From positions 1-64,000 of the forward strand of contig NZ_SMSK01000001.1 in the NCBI RefSeq assembly GCF_004354985.1: DNA of 64,000 nt, read 5' to 3'. Source of the stretch: Segetibacter sp. 3557_3 (GTDB lineage Bacteria > Bacteroidota > Bacteroidia > Chitinophagales > Chitinophagaceae). The translations under genes were made by a program, and so were the position numbers. Below, in pieces: positions 42,308-61,319 of this stretch. The notes under the pieces were generated by a model. That model saw nothing but the letters and a program-made list of their open reading frames with translations. It was not told the DNA's origin and ran no database searches. Positions within the stretch are counted from its first letter, which is position 1; each line of letters starts with the position of its first letter.

Positions 42308-43543
42308 CTAGTCAATCCTGTTTGCGGCGAATACCTTATTTCTCGCCATCAGGCAACCGCCAATTACACCGGCCTTCTCCTCCAGCTTAGACATCTTCAA
42401 TTGAGAGTCGTTATTTACCAGGGAGAGGGAATATTTGTTTAAAGCGCTCCTGATGGGCAGGCGAATGTAGTCGCCGGTTTGTGCTAAGGTGCCCCCAAGC
42501 AACACCAGTTCGGGATTGAAAATATTAATCAGCAATGCAATACCTCTTCCTATCTTTTCACCAATCTCTGCAATCAGTTCTATACACAGCATGTCGTCGT
42601 TTTTTGCCGCCTCAATAATTTGCTGAAGCTTCAAGTTATCGAAGCTGTCAACGCTTTTCACGAGCTGCGATGAAGAGCCCCCATTAATTTTCTCTTTAAA
42701 CAACCTGATCAGCGCATTGCCAGAGCCTTCAGTTTCGAGGCAGCCTCTTTTGCCACACTGGCAAATGATTTCATTGTCAAAGAAAGGGATGTGGCCAAAC
42801 TCTCCGCTAAAGCCTGACTTGCCATAATATACTTTTCCATCTACCAGGATTCCAAGTCCTAAGCCATAGTCCATGTTGATGAAGAGAACATTTCGTTCTT
42901 TGCTTACAATTCCACAGCAAAACTCTCCATAGGCCATCGCACGCGAGTCGTTTTCCAAAAAAGTCCGGATCCCTAAGATCGCCTCTATGGTACCAGCCAG
43001 CGGCTCCTCATGAAAATGGAAGAAGCTGTAGCTATACCCATTTGCATTATTGATCCGGCCTGAGAGATTGATGCCTACCGCTACAATTTTGTCTTTCGAC
43101 ACCGTTAGTTCGGCAATAAATTGCTTGATAACTTTAATCATTTCATTGAACGACTCCAGCGAGTTTTCCAACTTATAGGGCACATTTTCCTTAATGGTAA
43201 CCAGCGACTTCTTAAAATCGAGCAGCCCGATATTGATGGAGTACCGCTTCACGTCTACGCCAATAAAAAAAGCCGCCTCTGCCACCAGCCCATATAAGCT
43301 TGCCCTTCGACCACCGGTTGAGTCTACCTTACCATTGTCCTTTATGAGCCCGTCCTGTATAAGTTCGTTTACAAGGGCAATGGCCTTGGGTGTACTAATA
43401 TTTAACTCCCTGCTGAAGTCGGCTACAGTCGCATTGCCCGTTCCATCCAGGTAAGAGATGATGGCTCGCTTATGTGCCTTGTTTTTGTAAGCAACACCGT
43501 TGGTGTTTTCATCAGAAAAAACTTCAAACAAGAGTTTAGACAT
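42308..43543 (-). CDS. ROK-family transcriptional repressor (NagC/XylR type)
   Basis: The 411-aa regulator has an N-terminal winged helix (about residues 25-80, RAIISYLDGTGNATVADFSRELNIS). A ROK sugar-binding domain follows, with FINMDYGLGLGILVDGKVY and the zinc-binding GHIPFFD...CQCGKRGCLETEGSG. ROK regulators of this type sense amino sugars or other sugars, and GlcNAc-6-P is the NagC ligand. It is transcribed away from the AGE epimerase operon with a 135-base gap, so it probably controls that operon. No operator could be picked out with confidence. Confidence 0.92.
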   Translation of the reverse strand: MSKLLFEVFSDENTNGVAYKNKAHKRAIISYLDGTGNATVADFSRELNISTPKAIALVNELIQDGLIKDNGKVDSTGGRRASLYGLVAEAAFFIGVDVKRYSINIGLLDFKKSLVTIKENVPYKLENSLESFNEMIKVIKQFIAELTVSKDKIVAVGINLSGRINNANGYSYSFFHFHEEPLAGTIEAILGIRTFLENDSRAMAYGEFCCGIVSKERNVLFINMDYGLGLGILVDGKVYYGKSGFSGEFGHIPFFDNEIICQCGKRGCLETEGSGNALIRLFKEKINGGSSSQLVKSVDSFDNLKLQQIIEAAKNDDMLCIELIAEIGEKIGRGIALLINIFNPELVLLGGTLAQTGDYIRLPIRSALNKYSLSLVNNDSQLKMSKLEEKAGVIGGCLMARNKVFAANRID

Positions 43544-43678
43544 GGAAACTGTTTGCTGTAAAAATCGGCAAAAGGATTTATCCCGGAACTGAAAACTTGA
43601 GAACTAAATAAATTTTTTTAAAAAGTATTTGGAAGTTATTAAAATAAATGCAAAATTGAGGTTCTAAATCGATCTGCT

Positions 43679-44887
43679 TTGGCCATTGAGGAAACCTTCG
43701 TTTTGCCCCAAGCTTCAACCGCATTGTCGGAGTATGCAGCTATTTATAAAAGTGAGCTCCTTGAGAATGTTTTACCATTCTGGATGGCCCATAGCAAGGA
43801 TGAACGCAACGGTGGTTATTTTACTTCATTAAACCGTGAGGGAACAGTTTACGACACCGATAAGTTTATGTGGCTTCAGGGCCGGGAGGTCTGGTGTTTT
43901 AGTTACATGTATAACCACATAGAACGGAAACCGGAATGGCTCAATATGGCTTTACATGGGGCCTCCTTTATGGAGAAATGGGGTAGGGATGCAAACGGAG
44001 ACTGGTATTTCTCTCTTACAGCCGAAGGTAAACCGCTTATCCAACCATATAATATCTTCAGCGACTGCTTTGCTACAATGGCATTTGCGTCATTAAGCAA
44101 AGCTTCTCCCAATGAGCGATACAACCGGATCGCGTTAGATACTTTTCAAAACATATTAAAACGACGGTCCAACTCCAAAGGGCAGTACAATAAGAACTAT
44201 CCCGGCACCCGGCCCTTGAAGAACTTCAGCCTTCCCATGATACTTTGCAACCTTGCTCTTGAACTGGAGCACCTGATGGGTAAAGCGCAGGTAGATGCAT
44301 TTATTCCGGAGGTGATCCATGAGGTAATGGAGGTGTTTTATCAACCGGATCTCGGATTGATACTGGAAAATGTTTACGAAGACGGTTCTTTTTGTGACTC
44401 TTTTGAGGGTCGCCAGCTCAACCCTGGACATGCAATAGAAGCCATGTGGTTTGTGATGGACCTGGGCAAGCGGATGAACGATGATGCATTAATCGAGAAA
44501 GCAGTGGACATCATGCTTCGAACCCTGGAACATGGGTGGGACAACGAACACGAGGGAATATTCTATTTCCTCGATGTTAAAGGCGCACCGCCACTACAGT
44601 TGGAATGGGATCAAAAGCTTTGGTGGGTACATGCAGAAGCGCTGGTTGCCCTGGCAAAAGGCTATGCATATACAGGAGATGAGCGTTGCGCCGCCTGGTT
44701 TAAAAAACTTCATCACTACACCTGGAACCATTTCAGGGATCCGGAATTTGGCGAATGGTTTGGCTACCTCACGCGAGAAGGAAAGATTCTGTCTCCTGCA
44801 AAAGGAGGCAAGTGGAAGGGCTGCTTTCATATACCACGCAGCCTATACCAGGTATGGAAAACAGTGGAAACGCCTAAGCAAAACTAG
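43679..44887 (+). CDS. AGE family epimerase (N-acylglucosamine 2-epimerase)
   Basis: The 402-aa protein matches the renin-binding protein / AGE branch: FWMAHSKDERNGGYFTSL, KFMWLQGREVWCFS, LNPGHAIEAMWFVMDL, LWWVHAEALVALAKGY, EWFGYLTREG and GGKWKGCFHIPR. It would interconvert GlcNAc and ManNAc; cellobiose 2-epimerase is a less likely alternative. The frame opens at 43643 but the first usable start is a TTG at 43679, which puts the conserved N-terminus in place. It is first in an operon with the FAD enzyme, SusC, SusD and DUF5009 genes. Confidence 0.9.
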   Translation: MAIEETFVLPQASTALSEYAAIYKSELLENVLPFWMAHSKDERNGGYFTSLNREGTVYDTDKFMWLQGREVWCFSYMYNHIERKPEWLNMALHGASFMEKWGRDANGDWYFSLTAEGKPLIQPYNIFSDCFATMAFASLSKASPNERYNRIALDTFQNILKRRSNSKGQYNKNYPGTRPLKNFSLPMILCNLALELEHLMGKAQVDAFIPEVIHEVMEVFYQPDLGLILENVYEDGSFCDSFEGRQLNPGHAIEAMWFVMDLGKRMNDDALIEKAVDIMLRTLEHGWDNEHEGIFYFLDVKGAPPLQLEWDQKLWWVHAEALVALAKGYAYTGDERCAAWFKKLHHYTWNHFRDPEFGEWFGYLTREGKILSPAKGGKWKGCFHIPRSLYQVWKTVETPKQN

Positions 44888-44948
44888 TCCGGCAAACAAA
44901 CGTATAAATGCCACCTATTACCAAGTAAGTACCGCAGCTCGATTCCAT

Positions 44949-46838
44949 ATGATTAAACCCTTTATCACCTTTTGTATCTGTCTCTCCTGGCTTGCCGGCT
45001 ATGCTCAAAGAACCATTGAAACTGATGTTTTAGTGATTGGCGGCGGGGTTGGGGGGAGTGCAGCCGGCATCCAGAGTGCACGGATGGGTGTTAAGACGGT
45101 ACTGGTGGAAAGTGGTCCATGGCTGGGAGGGATGATATCAGCGGCCGGTGTTACAGCAACAGACGGGAACCACAACCTGCCTTCAGGCTTATGGGCCGAG
45201 TTCCGCAATCATGTGTATAACACTTACGGCGGCCCAACAGCTGTTGCTACAGGATGGGTTAGCAATACACAGTTTGAACCGCATGTGTCGGACAGCATTT
45301 TTAAGCTGATGGCAAAGAATGAAAAGGAGCTGACAACCTTATTTAATTACTCCTTTACGAAGCTTTCAACAAAAGCCAACCGGATTACCGAAGTCGTCTT
45401 TACAAGTCATAAAAACGGGGACAAGTTAATCGTGAAGTCAAAGATTTGTATCGATGCTACTGAGTTGGGAGATGTAATGAAAGCTGCGGGAGTTAGTTAT
45501 GACCTGGGTATGGAGGCCGGTTCAATTACCGGGGAGAACGTCGGAATCGTTACTTCCAATAATATCGTACAGGACCTTACTTATGTGGCCATTTTGAAAG
45601 ATTATGGTGCTGGTACCGATCATACCATACCTAAACCGGCTCACTATAGCCCGGATGAATTTGACGCTGCATGCACAGATTATTATAAAGACAAAAGCCG
45701 CCAGGCACCCACGGTCGACGCAAAAAAGATGTTGGATTATGGCAAGCTGCCAAATGGAAAATATATGTTGAACTGGCCGGGCTATGGCAATGATACCTAC
45801 CTGAACGTGGTAGAAATGACCGACGCTGAAAGATCAAATGAATTGGAAAAGGCGAAGCAGACGACACTACGTTTTGTTTATTTTATCCAGCAGCAATTAG
45901 GCTTTAAACACCTGGGCCTCGCTGATGACGAGTTTCCAACCGGCGATAAGTTAGCGTTGATGCCTTACCACAGGGAAGGCAGGAGGCTCAAAGGTTTAGT
46001 TAGAATGACCATGAGACATATTGCAGAGCCATATACCTATGGTGACGCTTTGTACCGAACCGGGATTTCAGTGGGTGATTACCCCATAGATCATCATCAT
46101 AAAAAGAACCCGGCTGCACCCCAGCATTTGGAATTTTATCCCATTCCTTCCTATAATGTTCCACTCGGTGCGCTTATTCCACAAACAATAGAAAATTTAA
46201 TTGTTGCAGAAAAAGGCATTTCGGTTAGCAATGTTGTTAACGGAACCACGCGTTTGCAGCCTTGTGTAATGTTGACAGGTCAGGCTGCCGGGGTGTTAGC
46301 CGCACTCTCATCAAAACAAAATGGGGCACCTCGCAAAGTTGCAGTGCGTTCGGTACAACAAGAGTTGCTTAAAGCAAAAGCGTACATCATGCCCTATATA
46401 GATGTACTACCTGGTAACCCGCACTTTGAAGCCGTACAAAAAGTTGGCGCGACAGGTTTATTAAAGGGTAAGGGTATCCCAAATAAATGGGCCAACCAAA
46501 CCTGGTTTTATGCTGACTCCGTGGTAAACGCGAAGGAGTTGTTGAAGGCCCTGGTGGATTTTAAACAATCAAAGGCCATTTTCACCGACGTTAATGTAAG
46601 CATTCGCGAGGCACTTGACCTGGCTAAAAGGATGAGTGCTTCACGCCGAACTCAAAACAAAGAACAGTGGGTGCCAATTGGAATTGAATTAACGCGCGCG
46701 CGCTGGCAAGAGTGGGGATTAACCAATTTCGATGAGAAGAGACCCATTACACGGTTAGAATTGGCTGTTCTGCTAAACAATACCATTGACCCTTTTTCTA
46801 TGAAGGGCGTTAATCATAATGGAGTTTTTGCAAACTAA
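44949..46838 (+). CDS. Secreted FAD-dependent oxidoreductase
   Basis: The 629-aa protein has a signal peptide (PFITFCICLSWLAGYAQ) followed by an FAD-binding Rossmann motif (DVLVIGGGVGGSAAGIQSAR) of the FAD_oxidored family. The last 100 or so residues form an SLH-like/alpha-helical tail. Such secreted flavoproteins occur in Bacteroidota polysaccharide loci with unknown reaction. The ATG at 44949 is used: an upstream frame to 44532 overlaps the epimerase gene and lacks a family match. It starts 61 bases after the epimerase stop and 27 bases before susC. Confidence 0.88.
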   Translation: MIKPFITFCICLSWLAGYAQRTIETDVLVIGGGVGGSAAGIQSARMGVKTVLVESGPWLGGMISAAGVTATDGNHNLPSGLWAEFRNHVYNTYGGPTAVATGWVSNTQFEPHVSDSIFKLMAKNEKELTTLFNYSFTKLSTKANRITEVVFTSHKNGDKLIVKSKICIDATELGDVMKAAGVSYDLGMEAGSITGENVGIVTSNNIVQDLTYVAILKDYGAGTDHTIPKPAHYSPDEFDAACTDYYKDKSRQAPTVDAKKMLDYGKLPNGKYMLNWPGYGNDTYLNVVEMTDAERSNELEKAKQTTLRFVYFIQQQLGFKHLGLADDEFPTGDKLALMPYHREGRRLKGLVRMTMRHIAEPYTYGDALYRTGISVGDYPIDHHHKKNPAAPQHLEFYPIPSYNVPLGALIPQTIENLIVAEKGISVSNVVNGTTRLQPCVMLTGQAAGVLAALSSKQNGAPRKVAVRSVQQELLKAKAYIMPYIDVLPGNPHFEAVQKVGATGLLKGKGIPNKWANQTWFYADSVVNAKELLKALVDFKQSKAIFTDVNVSIREALDLAKRMSASRRTQNKEQWVPIGIELTRARWQEWGLTNFDEKRPITRLELAVLLNNTIDPFSMKGVNHNGVFAN

Positions 46839-46865
46839 ACAAATTCAAAAATCAAAATTACAACA

Positions 46866-49800
46866 ATGAGAAAGTTTGCCGCTGTGCTGCTGGTGCTGCT
46901 TATGAGTTCAACATGGGCGTTGGCGCAGGACCTTAAAATTACCGGTCGCATTCTTAGTGTAGCAGGCCAGCCGGTTGAGGGTGCATCTGTTACCGTTAAA
47001 GGTTCAGGCCGTGGCGTAAGTACAAACGCGGCAGGCGAATACACCATTACTGCAAGCCGCGGGCAGGTACTTGTTGTATCCAGTGTTGGTTATGGAACTT
47101 CTGAAAAGGTGGTAAACGGCTCAACCCTTGATTTTTCGCTTACTGAAAACAACGATCCGTTAGCCGATGTAGTGGTCGTGGGTTATGGTACACAGCGAAG
47201 GGCAGCAGTAACAAGTGCTATCGCTGTTGTAAAAGGCGACCAGTTGATCAAGCGGCCATTGGCATCTACCAGTATGGCTTTGCAGGGTTTTGCTCCCGGG
47301 GTTGTGGTTCAGCAAGGTTCGGGTCAGCCGGGTGCCGATGGTGGATCGATCAATATTCGTGGCATTGGATCTATTACGGGCAGCTCAGCTCCCCTGATCA
47401 TTGTTGACGGGGTAGAAGGGGTAAGCATCAATGATATCGATCCGAATGTAATCGATAATATCTCTGTGCTTAAAGATGCAGCCTCTACAGCAGTATACGG
47501 AGTAAGAGGAACCAACGGAGTTATACTTATTAAAACCAAAAGGGGCCAGGCGGGCAAAACTTCAATCTCGTTCAACAGTTTTGTTACGAAGCAAACGCCT
47601 ACCAATTTCCCTGAATTGTTGTCGGCTGTTGATAACCTCATTTTGAATAATGAAGCGGTTTCCAACACAGGCTCCACTGTGCTACCTTACCCACAGGCGC
47701 TCATAGATTTGTATCGTTCTACTCCTGCCAACAACCTCACCGTGTTTGATACAGACTGGAAAGATCTGATCTTTCAAAATAATGGCTTGTTGCAAAACCA
47801 CAACATCATCGTAAATGGCGGGTCCGATAAGGTTAGCTTTCTGGCATCGGGTACCTACCTCAACCAGCAGGGGATCATTGTAAACAACAGCTTCAAAAAA
47901 TATGACCTCCGGATAAACAGCGATGTAAAACTGAGCAGAAAGCTAAAGTTTAGCACCGATCTCTTTTATACCAACGCAACCAATATACAGCCCGCTGGTA
48001 TGTCGCCAAACGAAATTGTTCAAAGGGGCATTTCAATGGCGAGAAACTTTCCTGGAAAATTCGGCGAGGGGCAATATGGCGACGCCGGACAATCGAACCG
48101 CATAAATCCTGTGGGCGCGGCAGAAGCATCCGGGATTAACAAGGCACAAACGCCGACGCTCTCACTGCGGTTTGCTGTAAACTACGAAGTTTTCAAAAAT
48201 TTTGTTATTGATGCATCCTACAACAGCCGTGCATCTTTTACAGAGGCATATGCGGCCAGGGGAACCTACAACTCATTTAATCCAAACCCGGTCACTAATG
48301 CTTACGTTTTCGACAGGGTAATTGGCGACTCATTACTCAGCTACACGAATAATCGGAACATCACCAATCAATACTTTGGATCAGCCACGTATTCATACAA
48401 CCTTGCAGATGCGCACCAATTCAAAATCCAGGGAGGGTTCCAGGGCCTGGATAACACGGTGAGTTCCGTTGGCGCATCAAGAGCCGGGCTAACTGATCCG
48501 TCTCGTCCCTATCTCAATCTTGCGACCTCCCCATTACAACCAAGTGTTAGTGGATCGGCAACGGATTACTCACTCGCTGGTTTCTTTGGAAGGTTTAACT
48601 ATGACTACAAACAAAAATATCTGCTGGAGCTAACCGGCAGGTACGACGGCTCATCGCGTTTCAGCCAGCTACTGGATAAACAATGGGGCTTCTTCCCGGG
48701 TGCCTCAGCAGGTTGGGTAATCTCGAAGGAGGGCTTTATGGAAAAAGTTGGTTTTATCGACTATGCCAAGCTACGTGTTTCGTATGGTAAATTAGGCAAC
48801 CAGGAAGTGGGTGGAAACTACCCGTTTGTTGCAGCCCTCAATGCCGGTACTGCTTATTACTTTAATGGTAACATTACTCCCGGATCTTCTTTGAATAATA
48901 TTCCAAATGAGATCGTGAGCTGGGAGAATTCGGCACAAAGCAATATTGGGATAGACCTCGCAATTTTGAAAAGCAGGTTGAACATTACGTTTGATTACTA
49001 CCAGAAGAAGGTAACCGATAACCTGATCGACTTCCCGGTGGCAAATGCTTTAGGCTATGCAGGTAGTTCCTTTATACCAGCTAATGCGGCTTCGATGATC
49101 AATAAAGGATGGGAGCTATCGGCTACTTATCGCAACAGCATCGGAAAGCTTAACTACAACATCACCGGTAATTTTTCTGATGTAAAAAATAAGGTGCTTG
49201 ACACCCGTGAACTGGATATCGTTCAGGGTAACCAGCTTTCAAGGGCAGGATACCCGATCCGTTCATATTACCTGTACCGCACCAACGGTTTGTACCAGGC
49301 GGGTGACAACTTTGCAAAGCCTTTTAATGGCTCACGCACAACCGGGCCCGGCGACATCCGTTATGTTGATACCGATGGCAATGATACCATCAATGCAAAG
49401 GACAGGGTATTGCTTGGCAACAACTTTCCCCGATACGATTATAGCTTAAATGTGAACCTGGATTATAAAGGGTTTGACTTAAACCTCTTTCTTTTCGGGG
49501 TTGGCAAAAGAGACAATTACATTTCCGGTGTCGGGGTAGAACCATTCAATGCCGGCAATTGGATCGCCTCAGGACTAACTACTGCCCTTGATAGATGGAC
49601 CCCTGGCAAAACAAGCGGCAACTATCCGCGCTTATATTCGGGGGGTAATGGCAATTATGTAGCATCAGACTTCTGGTTAAGAGATGGTTCATTTATGCGG
49701 GTAAAACACATCACGCTGGGCTATACACTCGCTAAATCACTTGCTGACCGCATGGGCATACAGCAATTACGTTTTTATGTCAACGCAGTTAATCCGTTTA

Positions 49801-49907
49801 CCGTTTCTAACTATGAGCCCGGGTTTGATCCGGAGGTAAGTAATAGCAACGGTGCTTTTTACCCCATTATGAAAACTTATACCGCAGGTGTTAACCTTCG
49901 CTTTTAA
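46866..49907 (+). CDS. SusC/RagA family TonB-linked outer-membrane protein
   Basis: The 1013-aa transporter has a signal peptide and a carboxypeptidase-like N-terminal domain (ITGRILSVAGQPVEGASVTV). A TonB-box-like region (ADVVVVGYGTQRRAAVTSAI) and a plug domain (GSINIRGIGSITGSSAPL) follow, then a 22-strand barrel ending TAGVNLRF. It imports a glycan across the outer membrane using TonB energy, with the SusD protein as lid. No extra N-terminal sigma-interaction domain is present, so regulation is likely by the ROK protein. It is 23 bases before susD. Confidence 0.96.
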   Translation: MRKFAAVLLVLLMSSTWALAQDLKITGRILSVAGQPVEGASVTVKGSGRGVSTNAAGEYTITASRGQVLVVSSVGYGTSEKVVNGSTLDFSLTENNDPLADVVVVGYGTQRRAAVTSAIAVVKGDQLIKRPLASTSMALQGFAPGVVVQQGSGQPGADGGSINIRGIGSITGSSAPLIIVDGVEGVSINDIDPNVIDNISVLKDAASTAVYGVRGTNGVILIKTKRGQAGKTSISFNSFVTKQTPTNFPELLSAVDNLILNNEAVSNTGSTVLPYPQALIDLYRSTPANNLTVFDTDWKDLIFQNNGLLQNHNIIVNGGSDKVSFLASGTYLNQQGIIVNNSFKKYDLRINSDVKLSRKLKFSTDLFYTNATNIQPAGMSPNEIVQRGISMARNFPGKFGEGQYGDAGQSNRINPVGAAEASGINKAQTPTLSLRFAVNYEVFKNFVIDASYNSRASFTEAYAARGTYNSFNPNPVTNAYVFDRVIGDSLLSYTNNRNITNQYFGSATYSYNLADAHQFKIQGGFQGLDNTVSSVGASRAGLTDPSRPYLNLATSPLQPSVSGSATDYSLAGFFGRFNYDYKQKYLLELTGRYDGSSRFSQLLDKQWGFFPGASAGWVISKEGFMEKVGFIDYAKLRVSYGKLGNQEVGGNYPFVAALNAGTAYYFNGNITPGSSLNNIPNEIVSWENSAQSNIGIDLAILKSRLNITFDYYQKKVTDNLIDFPVANALGYAGSSFIPANAASMINKGWELSATYRNSIGKLNYNITGNFSDVKNKVLDTRELDIVQGNQLSRAGYPIRSYYLYRTNGLYQAGDNFAKPFNGSRTTGPGDIRYVDTDGNDTINAKDRVLLGNNFPRYDYSLNVNLDYKGFDLNLFLFGVGKRDNYISGVGVEPFNAGNWIASGLTTALDRWTPGKTSGNYPRLYSGGNGNYVASDFWLRDGSFMRVKHITLGYTLAKSLADRMGIQQLRFYVNAVNPFTVSNYEPGFDPEVSNSNGAFYPIMKTYTAGVNLRF

Positions 49908-49930
49908 TAAAAACATTTAAACGTTCCGAT

Positions 49931-51712: not shown

Positions 51713-51771
51713 TCATTCATCATCTGAATACAAAGGGGTAGCAATAAAATGCACCCCTTTTTTGTACCTAT

Positions 51772-53164: not shown

Positions 53165-53260
53165 GTCAATACTCAACATCCGGAATTTTCCGTCTTCATT
53201 AAAGACAACCAACTAAATGAAAGTTTCGGCCAGTATCAGGTAATAGCTGGGTCTTCGATG

Positions 53261-55363
53261 TTATAAGTCTATAATCATTTTTCCCCCGCTTAGGAGTTGC
53301 TGGTGTGTGATGGATGTAACCAGGGTTTTTCCATTTAAGCTTACCTTTTTAATCCTTTTTTCTCCGCTACTTGCTTTGCTTACCTTAATAGAAAGGCGTT
53401 TACCGTTTGGCAATGCAATCATTGCTTCGTCAACAAGCGGATAACCAAATACATATTCACCACTGGCCGGGTTCATCGGGTACATGCCTAGTGCGGTCCA
53501 TACCAGCCATGCACTCATTTGCCCGCAATCATCGTTGCCGCTCAAACCATCTGGACCCAATTTGTATACACTGTCTACAACGGTTGTAATTTGCTTGGCC
53601 GCTTTTTGCGGGTAGCCTAATGCAGCGTACATGTAAATAATGTGATGACTGGGTTCATTACCATGTGCATACTGTCCGATCAACCCGCTGATGTCGCCGG
53701 AGACATTCGTGCCATGTAATTCGGATGTAGTTGAAAACAGGGTATCCAGTTTAGCAACTAACCGCTCTTTGCCGCCATATAGTTTAGCCAGTCCCTGAAC
53801 ATCATGTGGTACAAAAAAAGAATGTTGCCACGCGGTTCCTTCTACATACTGGCCTTCAAAACCATGCTCAGAAAGCAAGGGATCAAAGGGTGAAATGAAC
53901 TTGCCGCTGCTGTCTTTTGCACGCATAAATCCGGTGGTGGAATCAAACAGTTTTTGATAACTTAAACTCCTTTTCGAAAAGGTTTGGTAATCGCTCGTCT
54001 TGCCCAATTTTTTTGCGACCTGCGCTATGCACCAATCATCAAACGCATACTCTAGCGTAATGGTAACACTCCAGCCATGTTTGTCTTGCGGTAAATATCC
54101 ATAACGGATATACTCTTGTGTGCCCCTTTGTTTTTGATTTGCACTTTTCAGCATCGCCCTGTATGCTTTCTCTACATCAAAACCCTTCACCCCCTTTAAA
54201 ATAGCATCTGCTAACACCGGGATGGCATGGTAGCCGGTCATGGTGTTGGTTTCCCAGGTACTTAGGTCCCATACCGGCAGTAAACCGTTGTCGTCGTAAA
54301 AGGAAAGCAGGCTATTCAGCATGGCTGGCAAGCGCTCGGGCTGTGTTAAAGTAAAAAGCGGGTGGAGGGCACGGAAGGTATCCCATAACGAAAAGACGGT
54401 GTATTTGTCGCCAATACTTTTCTTAACCAGGTTATCCTGGTTGCGATACTTTCCATCATTGTCGGAATAAATAACGGGTGCCAGGCAGGTGCGGTAAAGC
54501 GCCGTATAAAACTTGGTTTCGAAATCCGGCGCTGAGGTAATCTTAATTTTGCTTAGTTCCCTTTCCCATGCTTCGTCTGCTTTGCTGCTTACCTGTTCGA
54601 AACTGGTATTAGCTGTTTCCTTCAACGCGTCCAAAGCCTCTGCCATACCTACACTGCTTAAAGCTACACGCACAGTTAGCGGTTTGCTTTCGGTGCTAAA
54701 ATGAAGTGCCATCTTTGCATCCCTTCCTTCTATCTTGGTCAGCTTTGCAGTTGACGGTCGAGAAAACCGTGCAGCAAAGTACACGCGCTGATTTTTTGCC
54801 CAGCCGGTTGAGTAGCGTTTACCAACCAGGGTGCTATCATTTACGAGTTGCAGGTATCCCTGTGTAGGCTGGTCCCAATTGATGTGAAAGCCCATGTCGA
54901 ACTGCAGCCAGCCATCATTACCCGGGAAAGTGTACCGGTGAAAGCCATTGCGGTTGGTTGCCGTCATTTCGCATAAGATGCCGTTGTCGAGTTTTACTTT
55001 ATAATACCCCGGTCTGCCGCTTTCCGCCCCGTGGGAAAACGAACTTCGTACATCCCCGGTACCCGACCTGATAAAAGGCATCACCGAAATATCGCACCAA
55101 TCGCCAATACCAGTACCGCTTAAATGGGTGTGAGAGAATCCTGCAATCGTATCACTGCTGTAATGATACCCACTGCTCCAATCCCAACCTTCTTTACCGT
55201 TGTCGGGACTAAGTTGTACCATTCCGAATGGAACCGTTGCACCGGGATAAACGTGGCCATGGCCGCCAGTGCCAAGAAATACATCTACTTTATCGGTGAG
55301 CTTTTGAGCGTGGGCAGTAATAAAACAAAGCAGGCCGGGAAGAGCAAACAAAATTTTTTTCAT
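53261..55363 (-). CDS. GH92 family alpha-mannosidase
   Basis: The 700-aa secreted enzyme begins with a signal peptide (MKKILFALPGLLCFITAHAQ). The GH92 N-terminal beta domain follows (VDVFLGTGGHGHVYPGATVP) and then the (alpha/alpha)6 barrel, with KFYTALYRTCLAPVIY, YTVFSLWDTFRALHPLFT, EPSHHIIYMYAALGYPQKAAK and GNDDCGQMSAWLVWTALGMYP. GH92 enzymes are calcium-dependent exo-alpha-mannosidases acting on N-glycans or mannan. The ATG at 55363 is preferred because longer upstream frames (to 55444) add a non-signal extension. It is convergent with the DUF5009 gene. Confidence 0.93.
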   Translation of the reverse strand: MKKILFALPGLLCFITAHAQKLTDKVDVFLGTGGHGHVYPGATVPFGMVQLSPDNGKEGWDWSSGYHYSSDTIAGFSHTHLSGTGIGDWCDISVMPFIRSGTGDVRSSFSHGAESGRPGYYKVKLDNGILCEMTATNRNGFHRYTFPGNDGWLQFDMGFHINWDQPTQGYLQLVNDSTLVGKRYSTGWAKNQRVYFAARFSRPSTAKLTKIEGRDAKMALHFSTESKPLTVRVALSSVGMAEALDALKETANTSFEQVSSKADEAWERELSKIKITSAPDFETKFYTALYRTCLAPVIYSDNDGKYRNQDNLVKKSIGDKYTVFSLWDTFRALHPLFTLTQPERLPAMLNSLLSFYDDNGLLPVWDLSTWETNTMTGYHAIPVLADAILKGVKGFDVEKAYRAMLKSANQKQRGTQEYIRYGYLPQDKHGWSVTITLEYAFDDWCIAQVAKKLGKTSDYQTFSKRSLSYQKLFDSTTGFMRAKDSSGKFISPFDPLLSEHGFEGQYVEGTAWQHSFFVPHDVQGLAKLYGGKERLVAKLDTLFSTTSELHGTNVSGDISGLIGQYAHGNEPSHHIIYMYAALGYPQKAAKQITTVVDSVYKLGPDGLSGNDDCGQMSAWLVWTALGMYPMNPASGEYVFGYPLVDEAMIALPNGKRLSIKVSKASSGEKRIKKVSLNGKTLVTSITHQQLLSGGKMIIDL

Positions 55364-55684
55364 GCTTGATAGTATGTTCATTCGCGATGAATAGCGTACA
55401 AGATTGCGATGCCTGAAAGACCAGCGCAGCACTACAGTATACACGCCTCTGCTTCAATTGCGTTTTTTTTTATACCAGCATTGGTTTTCTATGGCGTCAT
55501 CCTTGCGTCGCAAGCACTTCATCGGCAACCCAATGTGCATCTTTGGTTTTCAACTCAAAGCCCATGTTAATGCTCAGGGCAGTCTAATAATAAGTGGCAT
55601 TGTGTTTACAGGGCTAATACAGCCGGGCAGAAAACGGCTGCTCCACAGCAACCGGTACCCATAATTGCTCAGTAGAGTCATGCT

Positions 55685-55727
55685 GTACAAGCCCGCCCGG
55701 CTGAAGCCATTCGGACGGGAGTGCGAC
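55685..55727 (-). repeat. Dispersed palindromic repeat, rearranged copy H
   Basis: The core CCCGCCCGGCTG / TTCGGACGGG is flanked by GTACAAG on the left and AGTGCGAC on the right. That is the outer arms of the + orientation around the core of the - orientation. An inversion inside the repeat or recombination of two copies would produce this. Confidence 0.75.
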
Positions 55728-55735
55728 CGGCCAAT

Positions 55736-55752
55736 CCCCAATTCTATTGGGG
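55736..55752. repeat. Short perfect hairpin
   Basis: CCCCAAT and ATTGGGG flank a 3-base loop, close to repeat copy H. No T run follows on the minus strand side, so a terminator role for the GHL10 gene is uncertain. Confidence 0.5.
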
Positions 55753-55819
55753 AGGGGCAAGCTGCAACGGCTGCTAAATGCTTGTGCTTCCGCCTGGTCC
55801 ACAAAGAAAACCTATCGGT

Positions 55820-56971
55820 TTATTTGATAAATGAATACTGGGTAGCAAAAAAGTTGATCTTATCCTTCACCCCTTCATAAAAGAAAAAGACTTCTCCATT
55901 TAAACCCTCTGCCCGGTTAGCTTGCACCATTTCGGTTACAAACGCATCACTCTGCAGGGTGCTTCCTGACTTTAGCAGCACCCCCGGGGTGTATAAGTTA
56001 AGCCTGGTTTTGAAATAAGGTTTTTGTTGCTGCAGGGTAGTTTTATACGCAGCAATGTCGTAGCGATACACTTGCGGAATTACACCATCAACCCAACTGC
56101 TGTCTACCCACGTAGGCCAGTCCTGCAAATATTCGGTTAAGCTAAACGGGTAGATGCTCGGCGCCATGATGACCTTCATATTTGGCTTTAAAGCTTTTAA
56201 TTCGGTATACATACGCTTCATAAACTGGTTCAGTTTTTTGGCCCGCCATTGTACCCATGCCGCGTTTTTGGGGTCGGCTGGCGGTGTTGCACCCGCATTT
56301 TCCGCCTTATATAAGTTAACGGTATAATCATCGTAGCCACCGGTGGTAGGCATGGCTGGTAACCGGTCATCACCCTGTATCCCATCCACATCGTATTTTG
56401 TAGCCACTTCTTTTAAAAGGCTCATGACAAAGTTTTGCACTTCAGGATCAAAAGCATTCAGCCAGTCAAAGCCATTTTTTACAAGTAGCGCGCCGTTGAT
56501 GTCCTTGCCTGCCCACCCGGGTTTAGCCGCTACAATAGGGCCGCCGTTCGCTGAAAACGAAGAAGCAAAGCCGTATTCAAACCAGGCATGCACCTTCATC
56601 CCGGCTGCATGGGCCTCTGTAATCATTTCCTGTAAAGGGTCGCGTCCCTCAAATCCTTCTTTAATTTGTTTACCGATCAGGTTTTGCATCACGGTACTTG
56701 GATAGATTGTGCGGGCATTGTTGTAAACCACTACAAATACCTGGTTCATACCCGCAGCTTTAAAGGTTGCAACCGTTTGCTTTATGTCGGCAAGGCTGTT
56801 CAACGCTGTGCTGGCTGTAGTGGTCACCCATGCACCCCGAAGCGCATTGGCATCAACAACAGGTGGTGGAGGGGGAGGAGTAGGGGTTCCGCCGGTGGGA
56901 GAAGTTTTTTTAGAACAACCAACAGCTACTGATAAAAGCAATGACCAGAAATAAATTTGAAGCAATCGCAT
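55820..56971 (-). CDS. GHL10 family (DUF187) glycoside hydrolase lipoprotein
   Basis: The 383-aa lipoprotein has a signal with Cys near residue 19 (VAVGCSKK), then a Pro-rich linker and a TIM barrel of the GHL10/PF02638 kind (LRGAWVTTTAST, VFVVVYNNA, VHAWFEYGF, DGIQGDDRLPAMPTTGGYDD, QVYRYDIAAY). Better-studied relatives include DigH of E. coli, which cuts denuded peptidoglycan strands, so an amino-sugar glycan substrate is plausible. It is a paralogue of the protein at 60228-61319 and is transcribed divergently from the MFS gene. Confidence 0.9.
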   Translation of the reverse strand: MRLLQIYFWSLLLSVAVGCSKKTSPTGGTPTPPPPPPVVDANALRGAWVTTTASTALNSLADIKQTVATFKAAGMNQVFVVVYNNARTIYPSTVMQNLIGKQIKEGFEGRDPLQEMITEAHAAGMKVHAWFEYGFASSFSANGGPIVAAKPGWAGKDINGALLVKNGFDWLNAFDPEVQNFVMSLLKEVATKYDVDGIQGDDRLPAMPTTGGYDDYTVNLYKAENAGATPPADPKNAAWVQWRAKKLNQFMKRMYTELKALKPNMKVIMAPSIYPFSLTEYLQDWPTWVDSSWVDGVIPQVYRYDIAAYKTTLQQQKPYFKTRLNLYTPGVLLKSGSTLQSDAFVTEMVQANRAEGLNGEVFFFYEGVKDKINFFATQYSFIK

Positions 56972-57080
56972 GGGATATATTTGAATGTTTCGAAATTAAA
57001 TATTTTTTCTAGCTTTATCCAACTTTTTAAATAATTTTAAAAAGTCATTTATTTGCTGGTTTGCCATTAACCATAACAAC

Positions 57081-58397
57081 GTGCTTAATAACCATCTCAA
57101 AGAAAGAAATCCGATCACCTGGATACCGACAACCTGGTTCGCGATGGGGCTTCCATTTGTTGCGTTGGCAGCAGCAAGCTCGATCATGTATAAAAACCTC
57201 GGTATCTCCGACTCGAGCATTGCATTCTGGACCTCGCTGATTATGCTACCCTGGACACTCAAGCCGTTATGGGGACCCTTTCTGGAGATGTTTAAAACCA
57301 AGAAATTTTTTGTTTATACCACCCAGGTATTTACCGGGGTATTGTTTGGTTTGGTTGGCCTGTCACTTAAGCTCGACGCCTTTTTTGCAGTATCCATTAC
57401 CCTGCTTGCCATTATTGCCATCAGTGGTTCTACGCACGACACTGCAGCAGACGGGGTTTACCTGGATGAATTAACGCCCAAACTACAGGCTAAATACGTG
57501 GGCTGGCAAGGCGCTTTCTACAATATCGCAAAGGTGGTATCGGGCGGTGTACTCGTGTATACAGCCGGCGAGTTGGAGAAGCAGATGGGCATTGCCAGTG
57601 CATGGATGGTTGTTATGTTTTTATATGGCGCCATTATGATCACACTCGGCATTTATAATAAAGTGATGCTGCCAACTGGTGGCGAGGCAAAGTCGGTGCA
57701 ATCTGTTAAAGAAAGCATGGCTACGTTAAAAGATGTTATCGTAACATTTTTCAGGAAACGGAATATTTGGTTCAGCCTGTGTTTTATTGTGTTCTATCGT
57801 TTTGCCGAAGGACAGGCAATTAAGATTACACCCTTGTTTTTCAAAGCGGCCCGGGCAGAGGGCGGTCTTGGGCTAAGCACTTCGCAAATAGGTGTTTTGT
57901 ACGGGGTAGCCGGTGCTGTTGCATTTGTATTGGGTTCTATCGCTGCGGGCTATTTTGTATCGAATAAAGGCTTGACCAAAAAAACCTTGATGATATTATG
58001 TTGTTTTTTTAATATTCCTTTCCTGGCGTATGCTTTTCTCGCTATTACGTTACCTGAAAATGTTTATATCATTGGTTCGGCTGTTGCCATAGAATACTTT
58101 GGTTATGGCTTTGGGTTCGTTGGGCTGATCCTGTTTATGATGCAAAACATAGCTCCGGGCAAATACAAAATGGCACATTATGCTTTTGGCAGTGGATTGA
58201 TGAATCTTGGTTTTATGATACCGAGTATGGTGAGTGGTTTTGTGAGCGACTACCTGGGCTACCGCGAATTTTTTATCTGGGTGCTAATTGCAACTTTACC
58301 AGCCTTTATTGTAACCTGGCTCGTGCCCCTTGCTAAGCCGGAAGTGGAGCCAACATCAACAGAAATTCAGCAGGAACAAAATATGGTTAGCCAATGA
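57081..58397 (+). CDS. MFS transporter, AmpG-like
   Basis: The 438-aa, 12-helix inner-membrane permease resembles AmpG-type importers of the major facilitator superfamily: PITWIPTTWFAMGLPF, STHDTAADGVYLDEL near residue 115, and GWQGAFYNIAKVVSGG near 138. AmpG imports anhydro-muropeptides or GlcNAc-anhydroMurNAc, and Bacteroidota relatives import other amino-sugar products. The start is GTG at 57081, because no upstream ATG is in frame. It heads the operon MFS - SGNH - DUF4434 - GHL10. Confidence 0.88.
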   Translation: MLNNHLKERNPITWIPTTWFAMGLPFVALAAASSIMYKNLGISDSSIAFWTSLIMLPWTLKPLWGPFLEMFKTKKFFVYTTQVFTGVLFGLVGLSLKLDAFFAVSITLLAIIAISGSTHDTAADGVYLDELTPKLQAKYVGWQGAFYNIAKVVSGGVLVYTAGELEKQMGIASAWMVVMFLYGAIMITLGIYNKVMLPTGGEAKSVQSVKESMATLKDVIVTFFRKRNIWFSLCFIVFYRFAEGQAIKITPLFFKAARAEGGLGLSTSQIGVLYGVAGAVAFVLGSIAAGYFVSNKGLTKKTLMILCCFFNIPFLAYAFLAITLPENVYIIGSAVAIEYFGYGFGFVGLILFMMQNIAPGKYKMAHYAFGSGLMNLGFMIPSMVSGFVSDYLGYREFFIWVLIATLPAFIVTWLVPLAKPEVEPTSTEIQQEQNMVSQ

Positions 58398-58449
58398 GCA
58401 AGCAGACCAATCCTCTTGTACCCGGCGGTTTGACCTTTGTGGATCGGCC

Positions 58450-58496
58450 GTTGCCCGCCCGGCTGCGCCATCCGGAGGGGCGTCGCAGTCTTGTAC
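58450..58496 (-). repeat. Dispersed palindromic repeat, copy I
   Basis: This copy reads GTTGCCCGCCCGGCTG, CGCCA, TCCGGAGGGGCGTCGCAG, TCTTGTAC. It is in minus orientation, in the gap between the MFS stop and the SGNH start. An open frame crossing it (58394 on) is only a shadow of this GC-rich element. Confidence 0.85.
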
Positions 58497-58588
58497 GTTC
58501 AGTAATGCTATTCAACAATATTGCGGCGAGGGCGGTGCAACTGTGTAACGGTGCACATCACAAATACATTAGTCGTTATGCTCGCTAC

Positions 58589-59287
58589 ATGTTTACAAAG
58601 GTGAAAGTAAACCTGTTGAAATCATTGGTGTTGCAAACCTGCTTTTTGTGCTACGCTATAAACGTGTTGGGCCAGGAAATTGATACCACTTACCTGACTA
58701 CTTATTACAGCCAAAAGGTTTCTCATTTCAGGTTGCTGCCCAATACACCCGGAGAAATCATATTCCTCGGCAACAGCATTACTGATATTGGTGAATGGAC
58801 AGAGACCTGGCAAAACCTTCGTGTAAAAAACCGCGGTATTTCAAGTGACAATACGTTTGGCGTGCTGGCGAGGTTAGATGAAATAGTAGAATCAAAACCT
58901 TCCAAAATATTTATACTTATCGGCATCAACGACATCGCCCGGAATACTCCCGACAGCGTCATCCTGTCGAATTATAAAAAAATCATACAGCGCATAGAAT
59001 CTGCATCGCCCCGAACCATCATATATGTACAAAGCATTCTGCCCACCAATGACGCGTATACGGCCTTTATACGCCACCAGCATAAAGACGAGCATATCCG
59101 GTTTATTAATAAAAGACTGGAGAGCATGTGCAAAGGCAGCAAACTTATTTATGTAGACCTATACAGCCGGTTTATCGATGCACAGGGCAAGCTGGATAAA
59201 CGCTATACCAATGATGGCTTGCATCTTACGGGCGAAGGCTTTGCGCTTTGGAAAACGATTTTATTGGAGAAAAAACATATGAAATAA
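58589..59287 (+). CDS. SGNH/GDSL-type hydrolase, secreted
   Basis: The 232-aa secreted esterase has a signal peptide (LLKSLVLQTCFLCYAINVLGQ). SGNH block I is IFLGNSITDIGEW with the catalytic Ser near residue 63. The block II/III Gly and Asn are in KNRGISSD and IGINDIARN, and block V has the catalytic Asp-His in TNDGLHLTGEGF. It probably removes an acetyl or other acyl group from a glycan. The ATG at 58589 is used because it precedes the signal peptide and avoids translating the repeat. DUF4434 starts 2 bases after its stop, so they are tightly coupled. Confidence 0.88.
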   Translation: MFTKVKVNLLKSLVLQTCFLCYAINVLGQEIDTTYLTTYYSQKVSHFRLLPNTPGEIIFLGNSITDIGEWTETWQNLRVKNRGISSDNTFGVLARLDEIVESKPSKIFILIGINDIARNTPDSVILSNYKKIIQRIESASPRTIIYVQSILPTNDAYTAFIRHQHKDEHIRFINKRLESMCKGSKLIYVDLYSRFIDAQGKLDKRYTNDGLHLTGEGFALWKTILLEKKHMK

Positions 59288-59289
59288 TC

Positions 59290-60222
59290 ATGCTGATAAC
59301 AGGCACCTTTATCGACGAAATCAGCCACGACATTCCCCACCAAAATTGGGGAGCTGCTGAGTGGGAGCACGACTTCAGATACATGCAGGCTGCCGGCATT
59401 GATACGGTTATTCTCATTCGTTGCGGGTATCGCAAATTTCTTTCTTATCCGTCTGCTTACCTGATAAACGCACACGGTTGCTTTGCACCGCCCGTCGACC
59501 TTGTTGAAATGTTTCTTACGTTATCGGACAAGTATAACATGAACTTCTATTTCGGTTTATACGACAGTGGCACTTATTGGGATACCGGTAACCTGTTTCA
59601 CGAGATAGAAGACAACAAGTTTGTAATTGAAGAAGCCTGGAAAAAGTACGGCCACCATGCTTCGTTTAAAGGCTGGTATTTGAGCATGGAAATCAGCCGG
59701 AGGACCATTGGCGCAACAGAGGCCTTCCGTACGCTGGGGCTACAATGCAAAGCAATAAGTGGAGGCTTGCCCACTTTTATCTCACCCTGGATCGACGGTA
59801 AGAAGGCTGTGCAGGCGGCCTCAACGGAGTTGACTAAAACTGATGCGGTAAGTGTAGAAGAACATCAAAGAGAGTGGGGTGAAATATTCAGCGGCCTGCA
59901 GGGCAGTGTTGATGCAGTGGCTTTCCAGGATGGTCATATTGATTATACAGAACTGGATGCTTTTTTTTCGGTAAATAAACAACTGGCCGATCAGTACGGC
60001 CTTCAATGTTGGACCAATGCAGAAAGCTTTGACCGTGATATGCCGATCAAGTTCTTGCCGATCAAATGGGAAAAGCTTAGGTTGAAGTTAGAAGCCGCCC
60101 GACGGTGTGGTTACGATAAGGCGATCACGTTTGAATTCGCGCACTTTATGAGTCCGCAAAGCGCCTATGTTCAAGCCCACCATTTATACAATCGTTACGC
60201 AGAGTACAAAAATTCATTTTAA
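59290..60222 (+). CDS. DUF4434 family TIM-barrel protein
   Basis: The 310-aa cytoplasmic protein (no signal peptide) begins MLITGTFIDEISHDIPHQNW, a signature of DUF4434, a predicted glycosidase-like TIM barrel. Barrel strands are seen in IDTVILIRCGYRKFL, MNFYFGLYDSGTYW, FKGWYLSMEI and LQCWTNAESF. Its reaction is not known. The ATG at 59290 was chosen because the longer frame from 59248 overlaps the SGNH gene. It is in the operon with SGNH before it and GHL10 five bases after it. Confidence 0.88.
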   Translation: MLITGTFIDEISHDIPHQNWGAAEWEHDFRYMQAAGIDTVILIRCGYRKFLSYPSAYLINAHGCFAPPVDLVEMFLTLSDKYNMNFYFGLYDSGTYWDTGNLFHEIEDNKFVIEEAWKKYGHHASFKGWYLSMEISRRTIGATEAFRTLGLQCKAISGGLPTFISPWIDGKKAVQAASTELTKTDAVSVEEHQREWGEIFSGLQGSVDAVAFQDGHIDYTELDAFFSVNKQLADQYGLQCWTNAESFDRDMPIKFLPIKWEKLRLKLEAARRCGYDKAITFEFAHFMSPQSAYVQAHHLYNRYAEYKNSF

Positions 60223-60227
60223 CAACC

Positions 60228-61319
60228 ATGCAAAAATATCTATGTACTTGTTTGGCGGTATTTTTCTTTACCATTTTGCTAAGCGCACCTTCACTAGCAC
60301 AGGTGCGTGGCACCTGGGTTACCAATGTAGGCAGCGATGCGTTGACATCAAAACAAAAGGTAAGGGAAACGGTACAGCGCTGCAAGCAATTCGGTCTCAA
60401 TACGATCTATGTTGTTACCTGGAACAACGGTGTGACGATGTACCCAAGCGAGGTAGTGGAGAAATATGTCGGGGTAAAACAAGACCCTGTTTACAAGGGT
60501 TTCGATCCGATCAAAGAAATTATCGCGGAAGGCCACAAGGCTGGGTTAAAAGTGATTGGCTGGTTTGAATTCGGGTTCTCGTACGCGTACGACGATACCT
60601 CAGGAGTATGGTTGAAAAAATACCCGCATTGGGCCGGGCGAGATGCAGCAGGAAACTTACTAAAAAAAAACAAGTTTTACTGGTGGAACTCGTTGCATCC
60701 GGAGGTGCAAACTTTTATGAATGAAATGATACTAGAGTTTGTAAACAAATATAACGCTGATGGCATACAGGGCGACGATCGCTTACCAGCCATGCCGGCT
60801 GAAGGTGGATACGACGATTTTACAAAAGCACTTTACGCAAAAGAACACAACGGGGGGCTGCCGCCTGCTAACAGCAAAGAACCTGCATGGCTGCAATGGC
60901 GGGCAGGTAAATTAAACGAATATGGCAAAGCCTTGTATACCGCAGTTAAAAAGCAACGTCCGGGAGCCATCGTATCCTGGGCACCGAGCATTTATCCCTG
61001 GAGCAAAGAGCAGTATTTGCAGGACTGGCCAGCATGGCTAAATGGTGGCTATGCCGATGAAATTCTGCCGCAGGTGTATCGTTACGATATAGCTGCGTAT
61101 GAGAAAACGTTAAAAGAATTGTCTGATCAACTGACCACCAAACAAAAACAAAACATATTTCCCGGCATACTCACATCATTAGCCGATGGTTTTTTGGTAA
61201 AGCAGGACATGTTGGAGCAAATGGTTGCATTAAACAGGAAATATGGATTTGGTGGCGAGAGTACGTTTTATTATGAAGGCATGAAGAAGCTAAAGCCTTT
61301 CTATCGACCAAAACGTTAA
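60228..61319 (+). CDS. Second GHL10 family (DUF187) glycoside hydrolase
   Basis: The 363-aa secreted enzyme has a signal peptide (LCTCLAVFFFTILLSAPSLAQ, residues 4-24). The same barrel as the 55820-56971 protein follows: VRGTWVTNVGSDAL, GLKVIGWFEFGF, DGIQGDDRLPAMPAEGGYDD, YLQDWPAWLNGG and LPQVYRYDIAAY. The catalytic acid positions match between the two. It is last in the MFS operon. The two paralogues sit on opposite strands around this operon and may act on different linkages or sites. Confidence 0.92.
   Translation: MQKYLCTCLAVFFFTILLSAPSLAQVRGTWVTNVGSDALTSKQKVRETVQRCKQFGLNTIYVVTWNNGVTMYPSEVVEKYVGVKQDPVYKGFDPIKEIIAEGHKAGLKVIGWFEFGFSYAYDDTSGVWLKKYPHWAGRDAAGNLLKKNKFYWWNSLHPEVQTFMNEMILEFVNKYNADGIQGDDRLPAMPAEGGYDDFTKALYAKEHNGGLPPANSKEPAWLQWRAGKLNEYGKALYTAVKKQRPGAIVSWAPSIYPWSKEQYLQDWPAWLNGGYADEILPQVYRYDIAAYEKTLKELSDQLTTKQKQNIFPGILTSLADGFLVKQDMLEQMVALNRKYGFGGESTFYYEGMKKLKPFYRPKR

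Follow-up and report, generated by a model that had tools for sequence, protein, structure and literature searches.

Within the window, by which we mean the whole stretch analysed here (64,000 nucleotides, the first 64 kb of contig C11 in the 6.75 Mb genome of Segetibacter sp. 3557_3), we examined a polysaccharide utilisation locus (PUL) at positions 42308 to 61319. Gene calls rest on Pfam and NCBIfam profile matches to the window proteins, by which all the named genes were found around one SusC/SusD pair, each at the place given to it in an initial annotation made from the letters of the sequence. The adjacent SusC and SusD, together with glycan-active enzymes and a regulator, make the region a SusC/SusD PUL, and its assignment to amino sugars in that annotation is supported, as is the presence of an N-acyl-D-glucosamine 2-epimerase (AGE). 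The strongest signal, which the initial annotation had overlooked along with the phosphodiester-cleaving enzymes of relatives, is a core consisting of the DUF4434 gene, the AGE gene and a permease gene. The features are as follows, with the open reading frame (ORF) given where it differs from the likely gene.

42308 to 43543, minus strand: ROK-family regulator with a winged helix-turn-helix domain (PF00480 and PF13412)
43679 to 44887, plus strand: AGE without a signal peptide (NF052547, 666.2 bits, cut-off 600)
44949 to 46838 (ORF 44532 to 46838), plus strand: putatively exported oxidoreductase dependent on flavin adenine dinucleotide (FAD) (PF12831, 2.7e-94)
46866 to 49907, plus strand: SusC-type TonB-dependent transporter (TIGR04056, 844.5 bits)
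49931 to 51712, plus strand: SusD-type lipoprotein (PF07980, 9.6e-41)
51772 to 53164, plus strand: DUF5009 membrane protein with a broken frame, two ORFs (Pfam)
53261 to 55444, minus strand: GH92 protein (alpha-mannosidase family), probably exported (PF07971, 9.4e-166)
55820 to 56971, minus strand: first GHL10 copy, with a lipoprotein-type N-terminus (PF02638, 2.4e-60)
57081 to 58397, plus strand: inner-membrane MFS permease, AmpG-like (PF07690; TIGR00901, 112 bits, cut-off 350)
58398 to 58588, plus strand: GC-rich stretch with an interspersed repeat, from the MFS gene to the likely SGNH start
58589 to 59287 (ORF 58394 to 59287), plus strand: putatively exported SGNH esterase (PF13472)
59290 to 60222, plus strand: DUF4434 protein, predicted cytosolic TIM barrel, candidate clan GH-A-like glycosidase (PF14488, 1.1e-80)
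60228 to 61319, plus strand: second GHL10 copy, putatively exported (PF02638, 1.6e-57)
13737 to 15665, minus strand: NagB-LmbE fusion, candidate GlcNAc-6-P deacetylase/GlcN-6-P deaminase (NF002557, 994.6 bits, cut-off 384)
15843 to 18185, minus strand: GH20 protein (beta-hexosaminidase family), beside NagB-LmbE (PF00728, 2.6e-125)

The NagB-LmbE and GH20 pair thus stands about 24-30 kb upstream of the locus. The start of the FAD oxidoreductase at 44949 was inferred from the sequence and from relatives, and that of the SGNH esterase at 58589 was likewise inferred, its ORF opening inside the GC-rich repeat stretch. Hydrophobic or lipoprotein-type N-termini, judged by eye (as was the signal peptide of the SGNH esterase), mark the FAD protein, GH92, both GHL10 proteins and the SGNH esterase as putatively exported. 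By the same inspection, no export-type N-terminus was seen in AGE, DUF4434 or NagB-LmbE.

The conserved core of this locus pairs DUF4434 with AGE, usually along with a permease, whose type differs between loci. The loci that we compared came from a scan with six DUF4434 proteins and are the best 80 of 555 by similarity, hence no random draw, with flanks of up to 10 kb on each side (25 of the 80 are shorter than 20.8 kb). The DUF4434 ORF was uncalled in L076 and L107, which leaves 78 loci for counts of the next gene, and L047 and L123 are one locus from two collections. The AGE of L047 (genome G084 of the sampled family) is identical to that of L123 and clusters in the tree with Flavihumibacter, by which the family sampled is probably Chitinophagaceae. 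Neighbours were counted by BLAST matches to the window proteins and by ORF clusters, with only the cluster representatives named by Pfam. Within 10 kb of DUF4434, AGE was found in 45 of the 80 loci, an SGNH esterase in 38, DUF5009 in 34, ROK in 28 and the FAD protein in 25, and the count for AGE is probably too low because AGE and DUF4434 stand 14-20 kb apart in long loci, as they do in the window. Of the 78 loci, 27 have AGE directly downstream of DUF4434, 24 have a sugar porter there and 10, like the window, GHL10. Permeases of four kinds were counted, and 67 of the 80 loci hold one of them (AmpG-like MFS in 20, a sugar porter in 28, and SSF in 19, four of these with CstA).

The pairing also holds across genomes. 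Among 147 genomes sampled from the family, DUF4434 occurs in 19 and AGE of the locus type in 22, with both in 17 against 2.8 expected (Fisher 5.6e-16, kinship ignored); the two genes are no more than 20 kb apart in 14 of the 17, far apart in G022 and on different contigs in G041 and G137. In family f34, DUF4434 occurs in 11 of 201 genomes, and of the eight loci read there six have DUF4434, a sugar porter and AGE in succession (one with a gene between), five of these with SusC/SusD beyond, while L156 and L158 lack AGE. Across the class DUF4434 is uncommon, with 5 of 295 genomes carrying it. The AGE-DUF4434 module without NanA spans Chitinophagaceae, Sphingobacteriaceae, Prevotella, Tannerellaceae and Muribaculaceae. 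The initial annotation had proposed a search for the same gene order elsewhere, and one relative (genome G066, loci L038 and L151) was found to retain the entire order of the window, with other relatives retaining most of it, which argues that the layout is not due to chance. The locus is nevertheless patchy, since the sole other genome of the same genus sampled (G098) has neither this AGE nor DUF4434. Second copies of DUF4434, 57-61% identical to that of the window and a few kb from the first, were observed in family f34 (L155, L158, G178, G505 and G580), where they adjoin a sugar porter and AGE, or SusC.

As the initial annotation had it, the AGE is of the type that acts on N-acetylglucosamine (GlcNAc) and N-acetylmannosamine (ManNAc): it clears NF052547, the N-acylglucosamine 2-epimerase equivalog, at the score listed above, whereas the cellobiose 2-epimerase model NF041848 gave 70.1 bits against a cut-off of 800, which rules out that identity. 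Its nearest structures in the Protein Data Bank (PDB), 6f04 and 2gz6, match over their full length with 519 and 512 bits. Counted at 55% identity or more to the window protein, this AGE is found in 22 of the 147 family genomes, and 23 more hold only a kind that is 36-39% identical, for a total of 45 with any match. Ten loci with the latter kind were fetched and read as a nan-type comparison set, in which clustering found a lyase in nine, a second protein family in nine, an MFS family in all ten, and SusC and one further protein family in eight each. For L131, NCBIfam describes the lyase as N-acetylneuraminate lyase-like, the second family as mutarotase-like and the further family as neuraminidase-like, each under its cut-off, and the label "nan cluster" is for that reason only a reading of the gene combination. 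In a midpoint-rooted tree of 75 AGE sequences, the ten nan-type AGEs form one clade (support 100/99), from which the AGEs of the locus type are split by a branch of 100/100 support. The six f34 AGEs are 57-60% identical to the window AGE and 34-37% to the nan kind. In four loci (L081, L090, L109 and L130) DUF4434 is accompanied by a nan-side AGE, on the opposite strand in three of the four.

Since even the NanA-like lyase from a nan-type cluster misses the curated nanA cut-off (122.9 against 382), a score below it was not counted as showing absence, and lyases of the nan-type clusters were used as tblastn queries instead. With these, no NanA was found in the window or in any of 100 related loci (L031-L130, some of them short), as the initial annotation had claimed for this locus, while the same queries match nine of the ten nan-type loci. 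The best match in the host genome is 28% identical (1.3e-13), and no close NanA was seen there. Among 21 genomes, there were matches of 63-100% identity in four (G055, G096, G077 and G008) and of 40-46% in seven (G077 again, G071, G002, G106, G085, G022 and G036), on account of which some locus-bearing relatives possibly own a NanA elsewhere. NanA-like dihydrodipicolinate synthase proteins lie within 25 kb of the locus in 1 of 44 copies, against 0.55 expected. The accompanying claim that sialidase is missing holds at the locus and may not extend to the genome, which has two BNR_2 matches on contig C29 (G000:C29:347762 and 358137, about 10 kb apart). Similar BNR_2 pairs were seen in G015, G071 and G106, with 9-10 kb between the two members, and in G077, with 17 kb; the stronger member outscores by far the neuraminidase from the nan cluster of G055.

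To DUF4434 itself, five aligned relatives are 68-76% identical, and its predicted model has a pLDDT (predicted local distance difference test) of 76.2 and a pTM (predicted template modelling score) of 0.81. The top structure match is PDB 4h41 (BT_0435 of Bacteroides thetaiotaomicron), with 70% identity and a template modelling score of 0.86, and its deposited name, "putative alpha-L-fucosidase", was given no weight. Beyond 4h41 there are remote fold matches to GH10, Cwp19 and GH5 barrels and, lower, to GH20, dihydrodipicolinate synthase and isocitrate lyase. Clan GH-A enzymes carry their acid/base and nucleophile after strands 4 and 7. Glu134 and Glu245, which are kept in all 105 DUF4434 sequences (104 of them distinct), come after strands 4 and 7 in the model, and by its fold and these two invariant glutamates DUF4434 is a candidate retaining beta-glycosidase. 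The axial N-acetyl group of beta-ManNAc cannot give neighbouring-group help, unlike that of beta-GlcNAc, and an ordinary retaining GH-A enzyme would therefore be chemically apt; we would like to note that this is an argument and not evidence. In the literature searched, which is thin in subscription papers, no mention was found of DUF4434, PF14488 or DUF4985, nor of an N-acetylmannosaminidase, and no paper was found there that has GHL10 together with "polysaccharide utilization". No function for BT_0435 was found in print, by a search for BT0433-BT0439 that needed two names together and could miss a lone mention of BT_0435.

The NagB-LmbE fusion had been put forward as completing catabolism, and its position in relatives agrees with this. 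When only NagB matches with an open frame of more than 600 aa were counted (28 of 58 rows) and genome sizes were rounded, 9 of the 28 copies in 20 genomes lay no more than 25 kb from the locus, where 0.39 would be expected, and in three genomes (G029, G085 and G071) the fusion directly adjoins DUF4434. This closeness ties the locus to amino-sugar phosphate metabolism, and NagB-LmbE is likely the end of the pathway.

We read the locus as a PUL for a glycan that contains ManNAc (with GlcNAc) and is not sialic acid, a reading to which we give slightly less than an even chance. The SusC/SusD pair would import oligosaccharides, which the periplasmic GHL10 proteins, GH92, the SGNH esterase and the FAD oxidoreductase would trim and deacylate, and the MFS permease would carry a small amino-sugar oligosaccharide into the cytosol. 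There DUF4434 would split it, probably releasing ManNAc, which AGE would then probably convert to GlcNAc, and the GlcNAc, once phosphorylated, would pass by way of NagB-LmbE into glycolysis. As long as amino sugar is lacking, the locus is probably repressed by the ROK protein. What the sequences display directly is the gene content, its conservation and linkage, a locus in which no NanA was found, and the conserved residues; every substrate in this scheme, the ManNAc step, the direction in which AGE would work and the regulation we infer.

The polymer that would feed such a pathway is suggested by the enzymes that some relatives add. Several carry, between SusD and DUF5009, a DUF5018 protein, a GHL10-DUF4985 protein, NAGPA or a calcineurin-type phosphoesterase. 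In 21 genomes, NAGPA phosphodiester glycosidases lie within 25 kb of the locus in 5 of 30 cases against 0.50 expected, and calcineurin-type PF16370 proteins in 7 of 20 against 0.25, these seven coming from five genomes, two of them congeneric. GDPD homologues were found in only 3 of 133 sequences searched. NAGPA follows the second GHL10 gene in G066, which has the window order, and by coordinates also in G010, where the order lacks an intact GH92. The locus of G051 reads ROK, AGE, SusC/SusD, alpha-galactosidase, two phosphoesterases, GDPD, DUF4434, sugar porter and NagB-LmbE. L147 (G051:C14:104000-123900), with L045, was seen to hold in a single run two calcineurin-type phosphoesterases, a GDPD, an ADP-ribosylglycohydrolase, a SASA protein and two DUF4434 proteins.

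Wall teichoic acids are anchored through ManNAc-GlcNAc-1-phosphate, and ManNAc and GlcNAc form the repeats of several secondary wall polysaccharides. Gram-positive walls are favoured because some relatives add phosphodiester-cleaving enzymes, and owing to these ManNAc-GlcNAc wall units they would account together for AGE, NAGPA, the phosphoesterases and the esterases. We regard a Gram-positive wall polymer, whether the ManNAc-GlcNAc linkage unit or a ManNAc-containing secondary wall polysaccharide, as the most likely class, although taken by itself this assignment is tentative and more apt to be wrong than right. More doubtful still is the fuller proposal that DUF4434 is a new family of cytosolic ManNAc-releasing glycosidases and forms, with AGE and the permease, the core of a widespread Bacteroidota system eating Gram-positive ManNAc wall polymers, in which the NAGPA of relatives would cut the GlcNAc-1-phosphate anchor.

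Several observations weigh against the ManNAc reading or against its parts. As to the polymer, the window locus itself has neither NAGPA nor PF16370, the single match of the genome to each lying elsewhere; GH92, and the GH20 of relatives, point to mannose and GlcNAc and not to ManNAc; and a Gram-positive wall polymer leaves GH92 and the FAD protein unexplained. The core is imperfect as well: 2 of 19 genomes (G018 and G139) hold DUF4434 without this AGE clade, 5 of the 22 genomes with this AGE carry no DUF4434, three Flavobacterium loci (L093, L095 and L097) pair DUF4434 with GH92 and GH20 while AGE is absent from the fetched flank, a general sugar porter replaces the AmpG-like MFS in 28 of the 80 loci, and the DUF5009 gene of the window is broken. 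The enrichment counts ignore shared ancestry, and some of the near matches come from one genus (G051 with G137, and G066 with G146). The quality of the DUF4434 model is moderate (pLDDT 76), with a weak part just after Glu245; the fold matches under 4h41 are remote and extend to other TIM barrels, among them GH20, dihydrodipicolinate synthase and isocitrate lyase, and the fold alone therefore leaves the clan of DUF4434 unfixed. Finally, 15 Asp/Glu positions are invariant in DUF4434 (13 besides Glu134 and Glu245), and because all are equally invariant, the two glutamates were picked by their place and not by their conservation.

The same GH92 and GH20 genes keep N-glycans in play, because they occur in some DUF4434 loci (GH92 in the window and in 11 of the 80 named loci, GH20 in 9 of the 80), and they are united with DUF4434 in the three Flavobacterium loci just mentioned. 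As an N-glycan or phospho-mannose PUL, the locus would use GH92 to trim alpha-mannose, GH20 to remove GlcNAc, GHL10 for an inner cut and cytosolic DUF4434 to split Man-beta-1,4-GlcNAc, the disaccharide of the core and a beta-mannoside that a clan GH-A fold would suit. This seems unlikely to us, though it deserves serious attention: it offers no role for a dedicated GlcNAc/ManNAc epimerase, whose gene comes immediately after DUF4434 in 27 of 78 loci, and 69 of the 80 loci showed no GH92 in the fetched flank (some of these flanks are short). Under the N-glycan explanation, the NAGPA and the phosphatases of relatives would uncap GlcNAc-P-Man and Man-P, and AGE would handle a minor epimer.

Denuded peptidoglycan, which the initial annotation had suggested as a possible substrate, fares worse. 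Here GHL10 would cut the glycan and the AmpG-like permease would take in muropeptide-like disaccharides. Both GHL10 copies clear PF02638 (204.7 and 195.4 bits against a cut-off of 27.9). We take DigH to be a GHL10 protein too, and presumably one similar to the two window copies. DigH is described as a denuded-glycan hydrolase, acting on denuded strands, in the available part of its paper (PMC12288456), and the GHL10 proteins also match Cwp19, a lytic transglycosylase according to the portion at hand of PMC6016235; these matches are weak (2.9e-8 and 2.2e-11). Asp196 and Arg132 are put forward as possibly catalytic by the structure paper on Cwp19, in the part available (PMC5765458), which also proposes Tyr197 for the active site. 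In HMMER alignments Asp195-Asp196 is kept in both copies, Tyr197 is replaced by Arg in both, and Arg132, close to a gap, is matched by Phe in the first and by Ser in the second; in place of WFNPYR, the Cwp19 stretch that holds Arg132, the first copy has WFEYGF and the second WFEFGF. Of Asp196, Arg132 and Tyr197, Asp196 alone is kept, and by these proposed residues the copies do not fit the Cwp19 type of peptidoglycan-cleaving GHL10 protein. A Deinococcus GHL10 protein has been reported to act on starch, as far as the accessible text of PMC9967864 goes, and a specificity other than peptidoglycan is at least as likely for the window copies. The nearest model of the MFS protein in the window and in two relatives is AmpG, a label that amounts to resemblance only, since the relatives score 118.5 and 120.3 bits and the window protein 112 against the cut-off of 350, and other relatives swap this permease for an SSF or a sugar porter. 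Catabolism of N-acetylmuramic acid and GlcNAc moreover has no place for AGE, and we consider peptidoglycan scavenging improbable.

Scavenging of sialic acid or O-acetyl-sialate with the lyase elsewhere in the genome, which could appeal to AGE, to an SGNH esterase that is closest to a sialate O-acetylesterase structure (PDB 6njc, phmmer 4e-54), to SASA-type esterases in 5 of 80 related loci and to the two BNR_2 matches on another contig, is rejected as a reading of this cluster and very improbable altogether, given the 28% identity of the best NanA match in the genome, the 100 related loci without NanA, a SusD that is ruled out as NanU (28.6 bits against 425, NCBIfam) and the other AGE clade carried by the family's nan-type clusters.

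Among the remaining features, DUF5009 is present as the initial annotation stated, and is split by a frameshift into two overlapping ORFs (51772-52476 and 52400-53164). Proteins of relatives align in one frame and then in another, which places the switch in the interval from about 52376 to 52410, near a run of A, and the DUF5009 ORFs of loci L031-L130 are all longer than 400 aa (45 of 45, 44 distinct). Either a real frameshift or a fault in the assembly may account for the break. The NagX label given to this protein stands for resemblance and no more: against a cut-off of 480, the two halves score 32 and 23 bits with NF046061, and of four intact relatives three score 45.9, 21.4 and 39.8 bits and the fourth gives no score. 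The ROK regulator is NagC/Mlc-like but under both cut-offs (190.9 bits against 650 for the NCBIfam NagC model). GC content is 42-47% across 40-64 kb and gives no sign over that range of a recent import of the locus. Scans for promoters (28 found, shuffle mean 34.9) and terminators (23 found, shuffle mean 24.8) did no better than shuffles, and the Rfam scan found a tRNA and no other RNA. The GC-rich, REP-like interspersed repeat occurs at 58398-58588 and at 38894-38940, with a core of about 48 bases and copies 78-92% identical; scoring of 40 out of 134 candidates gave at least 39 further partial matches in the genome, and its exact 17-base core was absent from all 162 fetched loci, L143 of the window's own genome included. 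A GH9 gene lies at the end of the window (63052-64000), and just past that end comes a close cellobiose 2-epimerase homologue (C11:64998-66212; 376 bits to 9l8i and 375.5 to 3wkf, solved cellobiose 2-epimerases). These two are a separate neighbouring beta-glucan gene pair.

PULs, AGE, GH92 and nan clusters are already known, and the coupling of DUF4434 with AGE is the part worth testing. Its recurrence across the phylum suggests a ManNAc route that bypasses sialic acid. A conserved AGE-DUF4434 module without NanA would, if the ManNAc reading is true, mean that ManNAc has another origin, possibly in the walls of bacteria living nearby, and it would give a function to DUF4434, a family that has a solved structure and yet goes unmentioned in the literature searched. 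Among the matches listed for ManNAc with PUL, for phosphodiester glycosidase and for teichoic acid with PUL, in the parts of those papers available, we saw no published description of this system.

Compared with known proteins, the DUF4434 of the window is like BT_0435 of B. thetaiotaomicron in fold and in most of its sequence (the 70% identity given above). The AGE is like those of 6f04 and 2gz6, which we take to be Nostoc/Anabaena AGE, in matching over the full length, and unlike them in lying in a PUL with DUF4434. The GHL10 proteins share with Cwp19 the GHL10 domain and Asp195-Asp196 and differ from it in Arg132 and Tyr197, the similarity being weak overall. The closest systems are the nan sialic-acid PULs of Bacteroidetes (NanOU, NanA/NanL and NanE), and in the available part of PMC3969230 ManNAc catabolism in this group is described as sialic-acid catabolism, with ManNAc released through NanA. 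In common with these the locus has SusC/SusD uptake, a probable ManNAc to GlcNAc epimerase, an SGNH/sialate-esterase-like protein and a putative route to fructose-6-P. Unlike them it lacks NanA, no nan-type mutarotase or neuraminidase was found in it, and it has an AGE of the other clade, a SusD that is not NanU, a ROK regulator and DUF4434.

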